From positions 1 through 7,833 of the forward strand of contig CALNBC010000354.1 in the NCBI GenBank assembly GCA_937874755.1: a stretch of DNA of 7,833 nucleotides, in the 5' to 3' direction. The position numbers were made by a program, and so were the translations under genes. Below are positions 1 to 7,833 of this stretch, in pieces (position 1 is the first letter of the stretch; the number at the start of each line of letters is the position of its first letter). Under the pieces are notes generated by a model. The model did no database searches, was not told the origin of the DNA, and saw only the letters and a list, made by a program, of their open reading frames with translations. Source of the stretch: an uncultured Clostridia bacterium (lineage in GTDB: Bacteria > Bacillota > Clostridia > Christensenellales > CALWSW01).

Positions 1-538
1 CAAATATTTCGCGGACAATTGCGGCGCCGGTGGGTTCGATGGCATACCGTCCGTCTGGCCCTTTACAGTAACCCAAAGCCCAATTGCCGTTATTGACCTT
101 GCATTCGCGGGCGTTTTCCATCATGCCGCGCTTGATGTTCTCGCTGAGCGTTGCGCTGTACCACTCGGCAGTGCTTTCAAGCATTCCTTCGAGTAGTATA
201 CCGGCTGAACCCTCGGGGATATACTCGCGGGCATACAGTACGCGAACGCCATAGCGACGAAGGCGGCCTTTGTATACGGCGGCGTCTTCGCGGTTACGGG
301 CGAAGCGGTCAACCTTCCAACATACGACGAGCTGCACCTTGCCTTTTGCGGCGTCACGTATCATGCGCTGGAACTCAGGTCGTTTTGCAGTTGTGCCGGT
401 CAAAGCGCGGTCTGCGTATTCGCCGATGATCTGTATATCGTTCTTCTGGCAGTACTCACGGATTTCTTTGAATTGCTGCTCTATGCTTGTGTCTTTTTGA
501 TTGTGACTTGAGTATCTGCCGTATATGTACGCTTTCAA
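1..538 (-). CDS. Large serine recombinase (phage integrase), N-terminal part, cut by window edge
   Basis: Site-specific recombinase of the resolvase/invertase superfamily. Such phage integrases join attP and attB through a covalent phosphoserine-DNA intermediate. 179 codons are present. The catalytic domain opens with the Y-x-R-x-S motif (Y6-G7-R8-Y9-S10, with S10 the likely nucleophile), followed by SIEQQ at 18-22, TGTTAKRPEF around 47-56 and the VDRFARN block at 76-82, which supplies the active-site arginines. From about residue 156 (GYCKGPDGRYAIEP) it enters the next DNA-binding 'Recombinase' domain, and the rest lies beyond position 1. The start is TTG at 538-536, with AAAGGA at 551-546 and a 7-base gap. 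The nearest ATG on this frame is internal and would remove the catalytic Ser. It is last in the leftward lysogeny operon, the usual place for an integrase. Family identification is firm; its role as the integrase of this element is inferred from context. Confidence 0.93.
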   Translation of the reverse strand, partial: MKAYIYGRYSSHNQKDTSIEQQFKEIREYCQKNDIQIIGEYADRALTGTTAKRPEFQRMIRDAAKGKVQLVVCWKVDRFARNREDAAVYKGRLRRYGVRVLYAREYIPEGSAGILLEGMLESTAEWYSATLSENIKRGMMENARECKVNNGNWALGYCKGPDGRYAIEPTGAAIVREIF

Positions 539-1348: not shown

Positions 1349-1969
1349 CTAAAACTTCCTCCTAAGTTCGACAACCTTTCCAAGAATCATAACAGGCAAT
1401 TTAACTACATCATCACACGAATAAAACATAGCTTCATATTTAGGGTTTGCAGGAATAAGCATGATTCCTTCGGGCCTAATTTTTATTCTTTTAACTGTCG
1501 CGCTGTCACCGTTTACAAGAACTGCAACTACGTCTCCGGAGTCGGCGGAACTTTCCTTCTTTATGATTACAACATCGCTGTCCAGGATTTGCGGGTCCAT
1601 TGAATCGCCTTTGACTTTCAACCCGAAGTATTCACCGCTGGCGGCCATCTCCTTTGTAATTTCCTCATAATCAACAATGTCGGTCACTGCTTCGATCGGC
1701 ACACCGGCGGCTATTTCGCCAAGGACTGGTATCCACACGCCACCGGTGGATTGGGGGATAGGGGAAGATGCGTTTGGGTCTCGACCTACAAGATAATCAA
1801 CCGTGACACCCAGGATACTAGCGATATTTGAAAGCATTTCAGGATTAGGTGTAGCTGTCCCTGTTTCATATTTCGCATACGCTTGTTGTGATATAAAAAG
1901 TCTCTTGGCAAGTTCTTTTTGTGAGATACCTATCGCATTTCGCGCATCTTTTAGGCGTTGTTGAAAAAT
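1349..1969 (-). CDS. LexA/CI-like phage repressor (HTH_XRE plus S24 self-cleaving peptidase)
   Basis: Lysogeny repressor of 206 aa if translation starts at the ATT at 1969. Residues 3-62 form an XRE-type helix-turn-helix (SQKELAKRLFISQQAYAKYETG, recognition helix about 27-37). The C-terminal half is an S24/LexA peptidase: cleavage site A88-G89 in GEIAAGVP, catalytic S123 in KGDSMDP, catalytic K160 in TVKRI. All key residues are present, so RecA-stimulated self-cleavage and SOS induction are expected. The start is uncertain. No ATG exists at the N-terminus: TTG (2017) lacks a ribosome site, GTG (1978) lies inside the Shine-Dalgarno sequence, while ATT (1969) sits 8 bases after an almost perfect one and gives the usual family N-terminus (M-F-Q-Q-R-L-K). 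It is first in the leftward operon and faces a Cro-like gene across an operator region. Confidence 0.93.
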   Translation of the reverse strand: MFQQRLKDARNAIGISQKELAKRLFISQQAYAKYETGTATPNPEMLSNIASILGVTVDYLVGRDPNASSPIPQSTGGVWIPVLGEIAAGVPIEAVTDIVDYEEITKEMAASGEYFGLKVKGDSMDPQILDSDVVIIKKESSADSGDVVAVLVNGDSATVKRIKIRPEGIMLIPANPKYEAMFYSCDDVVKLPVMILGKVVELRRKF

Positions 1970-1973
1970 TGTA

Positions 1974-1984
1974 ATCACCCCCTT
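1974..1984 (-). promoter_or_regulatory. Very strong ribosome binding site of the repressor
   Basis: The minus strand reads AAGGGGGTGAT, matching the anti-Shine-Dalgarno partner AAGGAGGTGAT at 10 of 11 bases (the odd base can form a G-U pair). The GTG inside it has no spacing left to serve as start. The base 8 nt after the G-run begins the ATT at 1969, so this site argues for a non-standard start codon. Confidence 0.6.
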
Positions 1985-1994
1985 AAAACAATAT

Positions 1995-2009
1995 ACAACC
2001 TCTGGTAGT
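1995..2009. promoter_or_regulatory. Putative operator 3, in the repressor leader
   Basis: Imperfect inverted repeat ACAACC-TCT-GGTAGT, one mismatch between the arms. It shares the ACAACC half-site with the two repeats to its right and lies between the proposed leftward start of transcription and the repressor's ribosome site. Repressor binding here would give autoregulation. Spacing between the half-sites differs from the others, so it is the weakest of the three. Confidence 0.4.
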
Positions 2010-2019
2010 AATAGCAAGA

Positions 2020-2106: not shown

Positions 2107-2307
2107 TTGAACTACTTAAAGGAGTTGAGACTCAGAAAAGGGCTGACTCAAGAACGCTTATCTCAGTTGCTTAACGTGTCTCAACAAGCAATAACGAAGT
2201 GGGAATCCGGGGAATGCCTTCCCCGTGCAGATAAACTTCCCCGCCTCGCCGAAATACTCGGCTGCACCGTTGATGAACTGTTGAGAGAACCCGACCAAGC
2301 CATATAG
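2107..2307 (+). CDS. Cro-like small HTH_XRE regulator
   Basis: A 66-aa protein that is nearly all one helix-turn-helix domain: LKELRLRKGLTQERLSQLL at 4-22, turn and recognition helix NVSQQAITKWESG at 23-35, and the closing helices through LGCTVDELL. There is no effector or peptidase domain, which is what a Cro-type or early antirepressor regulator looks like. The start is TTG at 2107, placed 7 bases after GGAGG at 2095-2099; no ATG is available at the N-terminus. It is the first gene of the rightward early operon and divergent from the repressor, so it probably competes for the same operators and tips the switch toward lytic growth. An activator role is also possible for this family. Confidence 0.88.
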   Translation: MNYLKELRLRKGLTQERLSQLLNVSQQAITKWESGECLPRADKLPRLAEILGCTVDELLREPDQAI

Positions 2308-3826: not shown

Positions 3827-4065
3827 GCTCATTCTTCTGCCGCCACTGCGGTGTTATCGTACTGACTTTCGGCAAGCCCAAAACACTCTCGTGCCCTTCA
3901 TGCGCTGCTATGCGCCTCTTCAAGATCAGACTCCCCAGGATAGTAATTATCCGGATGATAAAAGAAGCCGCCCGAGACGGCAATCTCGAAGCGGCGGGGG
4001 AAATTCGCACTGTTATTGTACCACAAAGGAGAAGAAATGAAAATCTTAAACCTCAAGCTCGATAA
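3823..4065 (+). CDS. Small zinc-ribbon-like protein (80 aa)
   Basis: ATG at 3823 overlaps the previous stop as ATGA, with GGAGGAG just before. The N-terminus is a short zinc ribbon: C6-R-H-C9 and C24-P-S-C27, with a beta-hairpin-like stretch GVIVLTFGKPKTLS between. The rest is basic and helical (IRLPRIVIIRMIKEAARDGNL), ending in PQRRRNENLKPQAR, consistent with nucleic-acid contact, though this is inference. Its last 29 bases overlap the start of the ATPase gene in another frame, so the extreme C-terminus may be dispensable. Exact function unknown. Confidence 0.68.
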   Translation: MSSFFCRHCGVIVLTFGKPKTLSCPSCAAMRLFKIRLPRIVIIRMIKEAARDGNLEAAGEIRTVIVPQRRRNENLKPQAR

Positions 4066-6028
4066 CTTCCAAGGGCTTAGAGATGAATCGTATGACTTCA
4101 AAGGTCAGAGCGCCAGCATCTACGGCGATAACGCGACAGGAAAGACCACCGTTTTCAACGCCATAACGTGGCTGCTTTTCGACAAGGCAAGCACCGGCGC
4201 AAAGAACTTCACGCCCAAGACCAAAGACGCAGACGGTGACATGCACTATCTCGACCATGCGGTTGAAGCACAGTTCGCTATGGACGATGGGCGAATCGTT
4301 ACCCTCAGGAAGGTGTTCCATGAGGTTTATAAGAAGAAGCGCGGTTCGGCTACGGAAGAGTTCGACGGCCATACGATTGACTTCTTTATCGACGGTGTAC
4401 CGACGAAAGAGAAGGAATACAACGCGACACTGCTCAGGTTCTGTGGCGACGCGGAAAAGATGAAGATGCTTACCATGCCCACATACTTTGCGGAGGAAAT
4501 GCCCTGGGACGCACGCCGGAAGTTACTCCTCGAAATCTGCGGCGACGTGAGCGACGAGGACGTAATCAGTTCGTCGCCCGAGCTGCGGGAGTTGCCAGAA
4601 TACCTCAGGATGCCAGGAGCGGCTAACCAGCGCTACACGGTAGACGAGTACAAAAAGATTGCTGCAGCGAAGAAAACGGACATCAACAAGCAGCTTGCTG
4701 CCATCCCCGGGCGCATAGACGAGGCGCAGCGCGCTATACCCGAAACGCCTATCGACCCCGAAGCGATACAGAATCAGCTTACCAGGCTGACTGTCGACCT
4801 CAACACGCTCATTACCAAGAAAACGGACGCGCTTACGGGCAACACAGCCGCTGCCGAAGCACGTAAGGCTACTGTTGAAACCGTGACCGCGATCGCGGAA
4901 GCGAAGGCGGCGCACAGGACGCTGGAAGTCGAGGCGAACGCCCAGGCATACGAAGCGATTGACAAGGTCAAAGGCAAGCTATCTGACGTACGTACCGCCG
5001 TAAAGGACACCGAGGCTGAAATCCAGCGCCACGAGAGCAACATCAGCCGCATGGAGGAAAGGCGCAACGAACTGCTCAAAGAGTACGAAACGGTATTTTC
5101 CGAATCGTGGGACGAGGCGCAAGCGGTTTGCCCCACCTGCCACAGGGAGCTTCCGGAAACCGACATCACCCGTATGCGCGAGGAGTTCAATACCTGCAAG
5201 AGCAACCGCTTGCAGAAAATCAACGAGCGCGGCATCAAGGAAGCCGACAAGACGAAAATCAAAGAGGAATGGGAGCAAATTGAGAAGCTGAGTGCATCTA
5301 TCGAAAGCTCCAAAGCTGAGATTGAAACCCTAGAGGGCAAGCTTGCCGAGCTGACCGCGAAGGTCAAGACCCCGGCCCTTTTCGAAACCACGCCCGAGTA
5401 TGACGCACTTGCCACCAAACTGGCGGCGTGCAGGGCGCACGAGGAAGACGTGAGCAAATATGCGACTGAGATTGTGGACGAGCTCAGCGGCGAGATTAGC
5501 ACCCTCCAGAGCGAGATTCAGGAACTCCAGCAGAGGAAAGGACAAGCTGCCCAGGTGGAAATCCAGCAGGCGCGCATCGGGGAGCTGAAAGCGCAGGAGA
5601 AAACGCTGTCAGCCGAGTATGAGGAACTGGAAGCGGGCATTTACCTTTGCGACCTGTTCACGAAAGCGAAGGTTAACGCGCTCACCGACCGAATCAACGG
5701 CAAGTTCAAGAGCGTACGGTTCAGGCTGTTTGTCGAGCAGATAAACGGCGGTCTGAAAGAGGACTGCGAGGTCATGATACCGACGGACACCGGGCGCATG
5801 GTGCCGTACACGTTCGCGAATAACGCCGCTCGAATCAACGCCGGGCTTGAGATCATCGACGTGCTGTCAAAGCACTGGGACATAGCAATGCCGGTCGTAA
5901 TCGACAACGCAGAGAGCGTGACAAGGCTTCTGCCCGTGGATACGCAGGTTATTCGCCTGGTGGTGTCCGAGGCGGACAAGGTGTTGCGTCTCAAGCTTGA
6001 TAAAAACCGCAACCAGAGCGTTGCGTAA
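4037..6028 (+). CDS. SbcC/Rad50-like phage ATPase with zinc hook (recombination)
   Basis: A 663-aa SMC-like ATPase. Residues 1-38 form the first half of the ABC ATPase head (MKILNLKLDNFQGLRDESYD; Walker A G-D-N-A-T-G-K-T at 30-37). Long Glu/Lys/Ala-rich coiled coils (roughly 180-350 and 375-560) flank a CPTC zinc hook at 365-368, the Rad50 dimerisation device. The C-terminal head shows NNAARINAGLEI at 595-606 where the ABC signature should lie, then Walker B MPVVIDNAESV at 618-628 with D623. The usual 'DE' is replaced by D-N-A-E. It is shorter than bacterial SbcC (about 1000 aa). Start ATG 4037 has AAAGGAG 9 bases upstream; an ATG 21 bases earlier has no ribosome site. Next to recT, it probably supports end processing or annealing in phage recombination. 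No SbcD-like nuclease is visible beside it. Confidence 0.9.
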   Translation: MKILNLKLDNFQGLRDESYDFKGQSASIYGDNATGKTTVFNAITWLLFDKASTGAKNFTPKTKDADGDMHYLDHAVEAQFAMDDGRIVTLRKVFHEVYKKKRGSATEEFDGHTIDFFIDGVPTKEKEYNATLLRFCGDAEKMKMLTMPTYFAEEMPWDARRKLLLEICGDVSDEDVISSSPELRELPEYLRMPGAANQRYTVDEYKKIAAAKKTDINKQLAAIPGRIDEAQRAIPETPIDPEAIQNQLTRLTVDLNTLITKKTDALTGNTAAAEARKATVETVTAIAEAKAAHRTLEVEANAQAYEAIDKVKGKLSDVRTAVKDTEAEIQRHESNISRMEERRNELLKEYETVFSESWDEAQAVCPTCHRELPETDITRMREEFNTCKSNRLQKINERGIKEADKTKIKEEWEQIEKLSASIESSKAEIETLEGKLAELTAKVKTPALFETTPEYDALATKLAACRAHEEDVSKYATEIVDELSGEISTLQSEIQELQQRKGQAAQVEIQQARIGELKAQEKTLSAEYEELEAGIYLCDLFTKAKVNALTDRINGKFKSVRFRLFVEQINGGLKEDCEVMIPTDTGRMVPYTFANNAARINAGLEIIDVLSKHWDIAMPVVIDNAESVTRLLPVDTQVIRLVVSEADKVLRLKLDKNRNQSVA

Positions 6029-6039
6029 GGAGGGAAGAA

Positions 6040-7524
6040 ATGGCAAAGGCAACTGAAAACAAGGATCTCGCGACCGCCAACACGCAGTTGGCGGAGAAGA
6101 AAGAGAACATGAGCGAACGCTTCACCAATATGGTGCTGCAGGAGTTCGGGAGCAACGTCGCCGGTGCGCTTGAGGTAACGGACTACCAACGCAGGCTTAT
6201 CCAGGGTTACTTCATTGCGATTGACCGTGCGCTTAAGAACGCCGAGGAAGAGCGGCTGCGCAAGAATAGCAAAAACAGTGACCATAAGTACGACAACGGT
6301 CTTCCGGTTGTCTGGAACAACGTCAACTTGACGGATCTGGCGCTTGATATCGTCCACTATGCCCGCATGGGCTTGGACATGATGCAGGATAACCACTTGT
6401 TCCCGATACCCTACAAGAACAACAAGGCGCAGAAGTACGACATTACGCTTATGCCCGGCTACAACGGCATTCAGTACATCGCTGAGAAATACGCCGTCGA
6501 AAAGCCGCTGTCGGTCACCATTGAACTTGTCTACGATTCCGATACCTTCCAGCCTATCAAGAAGAGTGCAACCAACCGCGTGGAATCTTACGAGTTCGTA
6601 ATCAACAAGCCGTTTGACCGCGGCAATGTCGTCGGCGGGTTCGGGTATATCGAGTATGCCGACTTTGCTAAGAATCAGCTCATCATCATGACGATGAAGG
6701 ATATCGAGAAGCGCAAGCCTAAATATGCGTCCGCAAAGGTCTGGGAGAACGGCAAGCAGGTTGAAACGGAAACCGACGGTTGGTTCGAGGAAATGTGCAT
6801 CAAGACCATCAAGCGTGAGGTGTATGTGCTATCCAATATCGACGAGGACAACATGAGCGATAGCTTCAAGGATTCGATAAACAATAGTGAGGCGGTCAAC
6901 AACCTAACCACGCGGGTGGACGATGCTGAAAAGGGGCTTTCGTCCGTCCGCAGGCAGACTGCCGAGGGGTTTGCGCAGACCGTCACGAAAGCCGACGTTA
7001 TATCCGCCATCAACCAGACCGCGGAGATTATACAGATAGCGGCGGCGAAAATCGCGCTAGAGGGCTATGTGAGCATCAACGGGACGTTTTCGGTTGACGA
7101 AAGCGGGTATATGCGCTCCACGGGCGGATCCATTGGCGGCTGGAACATACTCAACAACATGATACTTGGTAGTCCAACGTCCGAGATAAACAGCGGCAAG
7201 ATTGTGGGTACGAATATACACGCGGCGAACTTGTACGGAACACAGATATACGGCTCAACTGGCCTTTATATGGGCTATGACGCGCAAAGCGGCACGACTG
7301 ACCTTTATGCGCCTTACATAGATTCAAATGGTCTACATGCTGGCGTCATAAATTCAGGGTTGAATGAAAGGTTGCGCATTTCAAACGGTATTTACACGCT
7401 TGAATTCAGCAGCGACGTGGGAGCTGGACTATCGACGAACGGTAACATATCCTCGCCGACTATAACGTCTTTACAGCAGCAAATTATAAGTCTAGAACAG
7501 CGCGTTGCGGCGCTTGAGGTGTAG
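6040..7524 (+). CDS. recT: Chimeric ORF: RecT recombinase joined to C-terminal part of a phage tail-tip/tail-fibre protein
   Basis: One open frame of 494 codons with two unrelated parts. Residues about 25-267 are a RecT-family single-strand annealing protein: TDYQRRLIQGYFIAID, the conserved GLDMMQDNHLFPIPY, LMPGYNGIQYIA, and WFEEMCIKTIKREVY at 248-262. RecT proteins are about 250-320 aa and act in the cytoplasm on phage DNA ends; a short acidic tail after REVY is normal. Instead, from about residue 268-285 the frame becomes structural: a coiled coil (NNLTTRVDDAEKGLSSVRRQ), then INQTAEIIQIAAAKI, INGTFSVDESGYM (346-358) and GGSIGGWNI (362-370), a pattern of tail proteins of phages of Gram-positive bacteria, and a terminal coiled coil (472-494). 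ATG 6040 has AAGGAGGG upstream, 11 bases after the ATPase stop. The fusion is best read as a deletion join or assembly chimera; a working bifunctional protein is unlikely. Confidence 0.85.
   Translation: MAKATENKDLATANTQLAEKKENMSERFTNMVLQEFGSNVAGALEVTDYQRRLIQGYFIAIDRALKNAEEERLRKNSKNSDHKYDNGLPVVWNNVNLTDLALDIVHYARMGLDMMQDNHLFPIPYKNNKAQKYDITLMPGYNGIQYIAEKYAVEKPLSVTIELVYDSDTFQPIKKSATNRVESYEFVINKPFDRGNVVGGFGYIEYADFAKNQLIIMTMKDIEKRKPKYASAKVWENGKQVETETDGWFEEMCIKTIKREVYVLSNIDEDNMSDSFKDSINNSEAVNNLTTRVDDAEKGLSSVRRQTAEGFAQTVTKADVISAINQTAEIIQIAAAKIALEGYVSINGTFSVDESGYMRSTGGSIGGWNILNNMILGSPTSEINSGKIVGTNIHAANLYGTQIYGSTGLYMGYDAQSGTTDLYAPYIDSNGLHAGVINSGLNERLRISNGIYTLEFSSDVGAGLSTNGNISSPTITSLQQQIISLEQRVAALEV
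6820..6900 (+). other. Likely junction between early (recT) and late (tail) DNA
   Basis: Upstream of about 6825 the translation fits RecT; downstream of about 6900 it fits a tail-tip protein. The switch falls in codons for SNIDEDNMSDSFKDSINNSE, with no stop, repeat or insertion-sequence end visible to me. The precise base cannot be set without an intact relative to align. The frame is kept, by chance or because in-frame joins survive. Confidence 0.6.
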
Positions 7525-7536
7525 GGAGGCGTAAAC

Positions 7537-7833
7537 ATGGCTAAATATACCGTTAAAAAGGGCGACACTTTATCAAAGCTCGCCAAACAGTACGGCACGA
7601 CGGTTGACGAAATTGCCAAGAAAAACAGTATCGGCAACGTCAACATGATTCGCGCTGGCCAAGAGCTTGATATAGGCGGCGTCGAAACGGCACCGGAACC
7701 CATCGAGGTTGACGAACCGGGTTCAATGGAACAACCTCGCTCCACCGCTGACTGGTTGGGCGATTACGAAACCCCGCGCGCAGCATATCAGCCATCCCAG
7801 GCAGTTCAGGACGCGGGGTTTCGTAATCGCCCA
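7537..7833 (+). CDS. LysM-domain phage protein, partial (3' end outside the window)
   Basis: The 99 codons present start at ATG 7537, with GGGAGG about 9 bases upstream, 12 bases after the stop of the tail-like ORF. Residues 2-46 are a complete LysM domain (KYTVKKGDTLSKLAKQYGTT, then VDEIAKKNSIGN, then IRAGQELDI), which binds N-acetylglucosamine-containing glycans such as peptidoglycan. A Pro/Glu-rich linker (about 47-70) follows and the frame is still open at the edge. Behind a tail-tip gene, a LysM protein is usually part of a tail-associated or lysis hydrolase; no catalytic domain has appeared yet, so which one is unknown. The last 77 bases lie in a perfect inverted repeat, so the sequence after about residue 74 should be treated with caution. 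Confidence 0.82.
   Translation, partial: MAKYTVKKGDTLSKLAKQYGTTVDEIAKKNSIGNVNMIRAGQELDIGGVETAPEPIEVDEPGSMEQPRSTADWLGDYETPRAAYQPSQAVQDAGFRNRP
7757..7833. repeat. Perfect 22-base inverted repeat ending exactly at the window edge
   Basis: The arm at 7757-7778 (starting TGGGCGATTACG) is the exact reverse complement of the arm at 7812-7833 (ending CGTAATCGCCCA), with a 33-base loop. The next inner pair does not match, and the outer side cannot be tested because the window stops there. It lies inside the open LysM reading frame and has no T-run, so it is not a normal terminator. A fold-back (template-switch) artefact or a graph-end effect of assembly is likely; a real hairpin is possible. Confidence 0.85.

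Follow-up and report, generated by a model that had tools for sequence, protein, structure and literature searches.

Chimeric joins between DNA segments have been characterized after phi29 amplification of a single E. coli cell. The excerpted account of that work (PMC1855051) describes 475 chimeras, 85% of them inverted and 15% direct, with 58 of 69 direct chimeras linking segments more than 10 kb apart. It places complementary stretches of 2-21 nt at more than 70% of all chimeric joins, and complementary ends in only 27.6% of direct joins that span more than 10 kb. According to an excerpt of a second study (PMC4060946), fragments with one end repeating the other in inverted orientation abound in amplified libraries, and an excerpt of a third reports that sonication libraries yield similar fold-back reads (PMC10908179). 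A fold-back chimera would form when a 3' end anneals to a short upstream match on its own strand and then copies it.

Phage gene arrangements provide the other points of comparison. Viral loci encoding RecT (L002-L040) present a conserved row: an SbcC-like gene, recT, and a metallo-hydrolase gene. The SbcC-like gene is present in 36 of these 39 loci; in the remaining 3, recT lies about 1.1 kb or less from the start of the locus. The metallo-hydrolase gene (phrog_392 in L011) follows 3' of recT in 38 of the 39, and in the last (L034) the contig end falls inside recT itself. The gap between recT and the hydrolase gene is at most 10 nt in 33 loci, 112-316 nt in 4, and 1236 nt in L040. A different arrangement is found in virus locus L043, where the order is terminase (phrog_979), portal (phrog_156), major head protein (phrog_1357), phrog_511, a tail gene, and a peptidoglycan-binding gene. 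Beyond it lies an ORF that spans 2764 codons or more (L043:12160-20451).

The window, that is the whole stretch of DNA analysed here, is a complete contig of 7833 nt (C354) from a genome bin (G000) of 1.87 Mb in 432 contigs, with an estimated completeness of 72%. At 6040-7524 on the plus strand it carries an open frame of 494 codons, free of internal stops, in which residues 1-262 are RecT and residues 263-494, read in the same frame, belong to a phage tail protein. We propose that this join probably arose in vitro or in the assembly step and not in a living prophage.

The other genes of the contig are as follows. The N-terminal part of a serine integrase (2..538, minus strand; PF00239, phrog_95) is cut by the contig start. 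Between integrase and repressor are two small ORFs on the minus strand that look exported by eye, with signal-like or lipoprotein-like starts (613-1059, which has no Pfam or PHROG match, and 1069-1383). The repressor is of the CI type, with HTH_3 and Peptidase_S24 domains (1349..2017, minus strand), and is followed by a Cro-type HTH protein identified by Pfam scan (2107..2307, plus strand). Small early ORFs come next, then the SbcC-like ATPase gene (4037..6028, plus strand; phrog_77, 235 bits), the usual upstream neighbor of recT. Downstream of the fusion, a LysM gene (7537..7833, plus strand) is open at the contig end.

Each half of the fusion has family matches of its own. Pfam RecT (PF03837) matches residues 98-261 at 41.3 bits, above its gathering cut-off of 24, and phrog_34753 covers residues 6-277; the RecT part at 6040..6825 has relatives in the 39 viral loci. 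Its own C-terminal part is missing after residue 262, which makes its length unlike that of the 119 other relatives listed (326-397 aa). The tail part (6826..7524, plus strand), searched alone against 5.8 billion proteins, returned its own protein (P0001) and four relatives (P0002-P0005), all stand-alone tail-type proteins. P0002, of 271 aa, is 56% identical to residues 263-494 over 99% of that part. These C-terminal 232 residues lack the start and about 38 N-terminal residues of the P0002 kind (M..F.I.LP), and RecT stands in that place. We considered a frameshifted or variant RecT end and rejected it, because the whole of residues 263-494 aligns to tail-type proteins. The original prediction, that RecT is joined in frame to the C-terminal part of a tail protein and followed at once by a LysM gene, is thus borne out by these matches and by a PF01476 match starting at 7537 (57.8 bits, cut-off 20.9).

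Alignments of both families place the switch at a TAT codon (6823..6825, plus strand; Y262), so that the change of family foreseen near residue 267 is real and lies slightly upstream. The RecT relatives mostly read KREVY or KREVF at this point, then mostly S (S.KH.P.DP.K), and continue for about 70-110 residues more; in the window, KREVY gives way to VLSNIDEDN. At the same place the tail relatives have EQLRY or a similar motif, then.L, with about 38 residues preceding the join. Scoring of the residue at the join was feasible for 35 of the 39 RecT relatives and gave Y in 26 and F in 9; the four tail relatives have Y, Y, H, and F. Since both families carry an aromatic residue or H here and the codon is TAT, a 3-nt match at the join is likely, as judged from relatives that stand in for the true parents. 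Composition across the join is only mildly unusual: of 150 adjacent pairs drawn at random from the bin, 7 are less alike.

The join interrupts the gene neighborhoods of both halves. The SbcC-like gene is in place upstream, and the metallo-hydrolase gene is absent after the RecT half. A hydrolase match elsewhere in the bin (C322, 33% identity) was taken as too distant to be the missing gene of this phage. On the tail side, the LysM gene of the window occupies the position of the L043 peptidoglycan-binding gene, and its linker matches that syntenic gene up to the start of the terminal fold-back (TADWLGDYETPRAAYQPSQAVQDA against TANYLAGYDRYTPSQAVNDA; E 0.003 in a single comparison). Judging by this match, the LysM gene appears native up to about 7811-7815. 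An unrelated phage gene (L289, L290) is 85% identical to the linker over 13 residues; we take this match as chance, because both loci came from scanning for an 8-residue piece.

The two halves also tend, on marker genes, to belong to different kinds of phage. Among the long RecT records, 11 of 18 encode the contractile tail sheath phrog_279, as against neither of 2 tail-side records; phrog_511 is in none of the 18 and in both tail-side records, which have the same match values, look near-identical, and count as one (G134, G136). Seven of the 18 long RecT records have neither marker. The tail sheath gene of G110 starts at 37486, well past the end of recT at 9766. When 33 of the 39 RecT loci were searched as virus records, 1 contained a relative of the tail part: in G128 it sits within a 708-aa ORF, on the strand opposite to recT and about 39 kb away. 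Reciprocally, a RecT relative was found in 0 of 12 tail-side genomes or records, drawn from 56 loci, in a search run without a positive control. The tail domain is also found inside longer proteins of other virions (708 aa in G128, 1162 aa in L062). A different-phage origin falls short of proof because phages are mosaic, because the tail domain resides in such longer proteins, and because the phage of P0002 is unplaced.

The fusion is a singleton wherever we looked for it. The halves were searched separately in the 5.8 billion proteins, with the best 120 of 1304 RecT matches listed, P0001 included. P0001 is a single sequence from a single contig in both searches, and the tail half has no match in any of the 119 further RecT relatives listed. 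This separate comparison of the halves, which the original prediction had suggested, leaves this contig as the only one among the matches listed to carry both. No part of the fusion matched any of 50,697 phage records (INPHARED, tblastn), and among 101 genomes, its own included, only its own matched. When viral contigs were scanned with a degenerate DNA pattern encoding the junction peptide, 8 stretches matched, all in unrelated frames. Single-sequence patterns for the tail half revealed no relative in viral contigs; an alignment search revealed 14 viral-contig loci, along with 42 loci in genome contigs. Within the bin, searches for a second copy with the whole protein, the RecT C-terminal part, and a tail profile gave only this contig or nothing (one of them ran without a positive control), so that neither half had a visible parent copy there. 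A published RecT-tail fusion was not evident from titles in a literature search.

The contig end itself bears the mark of a fold-back, a feature that the original prediction does not mention. Its last 22 nt (right arm, 7812..7833, minus strand) are an inverted copy of 7757..7778 (left arm, plus strand), with 22 of 22 positions complementary, 33 nt between the arms, and CGCG at the inner end of both. We surveyed the ends of 114 other contigs of the same assembly, of which 67 were readable (the rest, which are short, consist of N), providing 133 readable ends. Perfect terminal inverted repeats were present at 5 of these: 15 nt (L172, 3' end), 20 nt (L202, 5'), 21 nt (L145, 5'), 27 nt (L218, 3'), and 29 nt (L205, 3'). 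Since the lengths vary, these are not a fixed k-mer overlap. By comparison, 0 of 1880 interior positions of the same assembly reach 12 nt. No terminal fold-back was found at 65 readable control ends in G001, G005, and G007 (from 74 drawn, less those that could not be read) or at 70 ends in other genome and virus records. One-sided Fisher tests give a p of 1e-6 against the interior positions and 0.029 for 5/133 against 0/135 control ends, the latter a modest control that is small, mixes assemblers, and includes virus records that are possibly trimmed. Fold-back ends of this kind point to a library or assembly prone to chimeric joins. Separately, the 3' ends of four contigs of the same assembly (L170, L180, L190, L203) have 21-mers in common, which probably represent a repeat where the assembly broke.

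In the reading we prefer, a 3' end copied from recT would have re-primed, or reads would have been bridged, at a short match of about TAT. The landing site would lie within a tail gene, either one from another phage or one far away in the same phage. An event of the same type, in which a 3' end folded onto its own strand at CGCG, would have produced the terminal inverted 22 nt. In-frame continuation across the join would then be chance, at about 1 in 3. We favor such an artefact because the fusion is unique, cuts two genes internally along with both gene neighborhoods, and breaks a conserved gene order, because the joined modules tend to differ in phage kind and virion type, and because contig and assembly have fold-back ends. 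Two features by which a chimera may be recognized are both seen: the join is limited to one assembly, with a single member on a single contig, and further chimeric joins are present, as the terminal fold-back here and at 5 of the 133 other ends. Several observations count against this reading. The frame is open across the join, composition differs only mildly, no parent copies turned up in the bin, the virion type of P0002 is unplaced, and the tail domain occurs in longer proteins of other virions. The excerpted figure of 27.6% complementary ends for distant direct joins (PMC1855051) weighs in the same direction, and fold-back ends bear on the internal join only indirectly.

The original prediction had offered a large prophage deletion or a chimeric contig as the simplest readings, and it is the chimeric contig that the evidence supports better. 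A natural deletion would have arisen by illegitimate recombination at a few matching bases, removing everything from the 3' part of recT to the 5' part of the tail gene. Integrase, switch, and early genes would then adjoin tail and lysis genes, with the fusion protein as a by-product. The gene order on both sides of the join is what an internal deletion would leave, the ORF is open in frame, the other genes of the contig are intact save at its cut ends, and no L043-type portal or major head protein was matched in the bin, albeit with distant queries and no positive control. In the collections searched, no independent genome was found to carry the same fusion as a conserved gene, which leaves the deletion unrefuted. 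Against it, a deletion needs both halves in one phage; the tail-part relative in 1 of the 33 RecT records has another setting, the tail-side genomes or records yielded no RecT relative (0/12, with no positive control), and the fold-back ends point to artefacts. We therefore regard a natural deletion as rather unlikely. The specific version in which a single in-frame event stripped a living prophage of the replication, packaging, and head block, leaving it to make a RecT-tail hybrid, seems quite doubtful to us. If true, it would take a prophage in one step toward a domesticated or satellite-like element that keeps integrase, repressor switch, and the tail/lysis end. A fusion made by natural deletion would at best be a weakened RecT.

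Illegitimate exchange between two phages in one cell, placing a tail/lysis module behind a broken recT, would fit the mosaic nature of phages and the tendency of the halves to differ in virion type. Exchanges that become established in nature mostly fall at gene borders, and here the join cuts two genes and is found once; we judge this origin improbable. A conserved, functional RecT-tail protein has the intact 494-aa frame as its only point in favor. We rejected it, because the separate searches place both halves in this contig alone among the matches listed (best 120 of 1304). The broken SbcC-RecT-hydrolase order and the unrelated frames of the 8 viral stretches with the junction-peptide pattern also speak against it, and we give it hardly any credence.

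The ORF at 6040-7524 should not be taken as a new kind of protein; it is likely a laboratory or assembly artefact. As an artefact it carries a warning: a chimeric contig can yield an open, in-frame ORF of 494 aa that matches well on both sides. The fusion is already in a protein collection, where it is listed with a RecT domain. Exact inverted repeats at contig ends provide a cheap flag: in assemblies that show them, new domain fusions deserve distrust unless backed by reads.

The locus can be set against three known systems. It resembles phage RecT (PF03837, phrog_34753) in residues 1-262 and in the SbcC-like gene upstream, and differs in lacking the C-terminal part and the downstream metallo-hydrolase gene. 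It resembles the short stand-alone tail-type proteins (P0002-P0005, whose gene adjoins phrog_511 in L043) in the C-terminal 232 residues and in the peptidoglycan-binding gene that comes next, and differs in that about 38 N-terminal residues are replaced by RecT. The third system is the chimeras of strand-displacement (phi29, MDA) amplification; library preparation by itself can also make fold-back reads (excerpt of PMC10908179). What the locus has in common with those chimeras, as far as the excerpted account goes (PMC1855051), is the pairing of an inverted fold-back with a direct join, at short matches or none, in assemblies of uncultured genomes.
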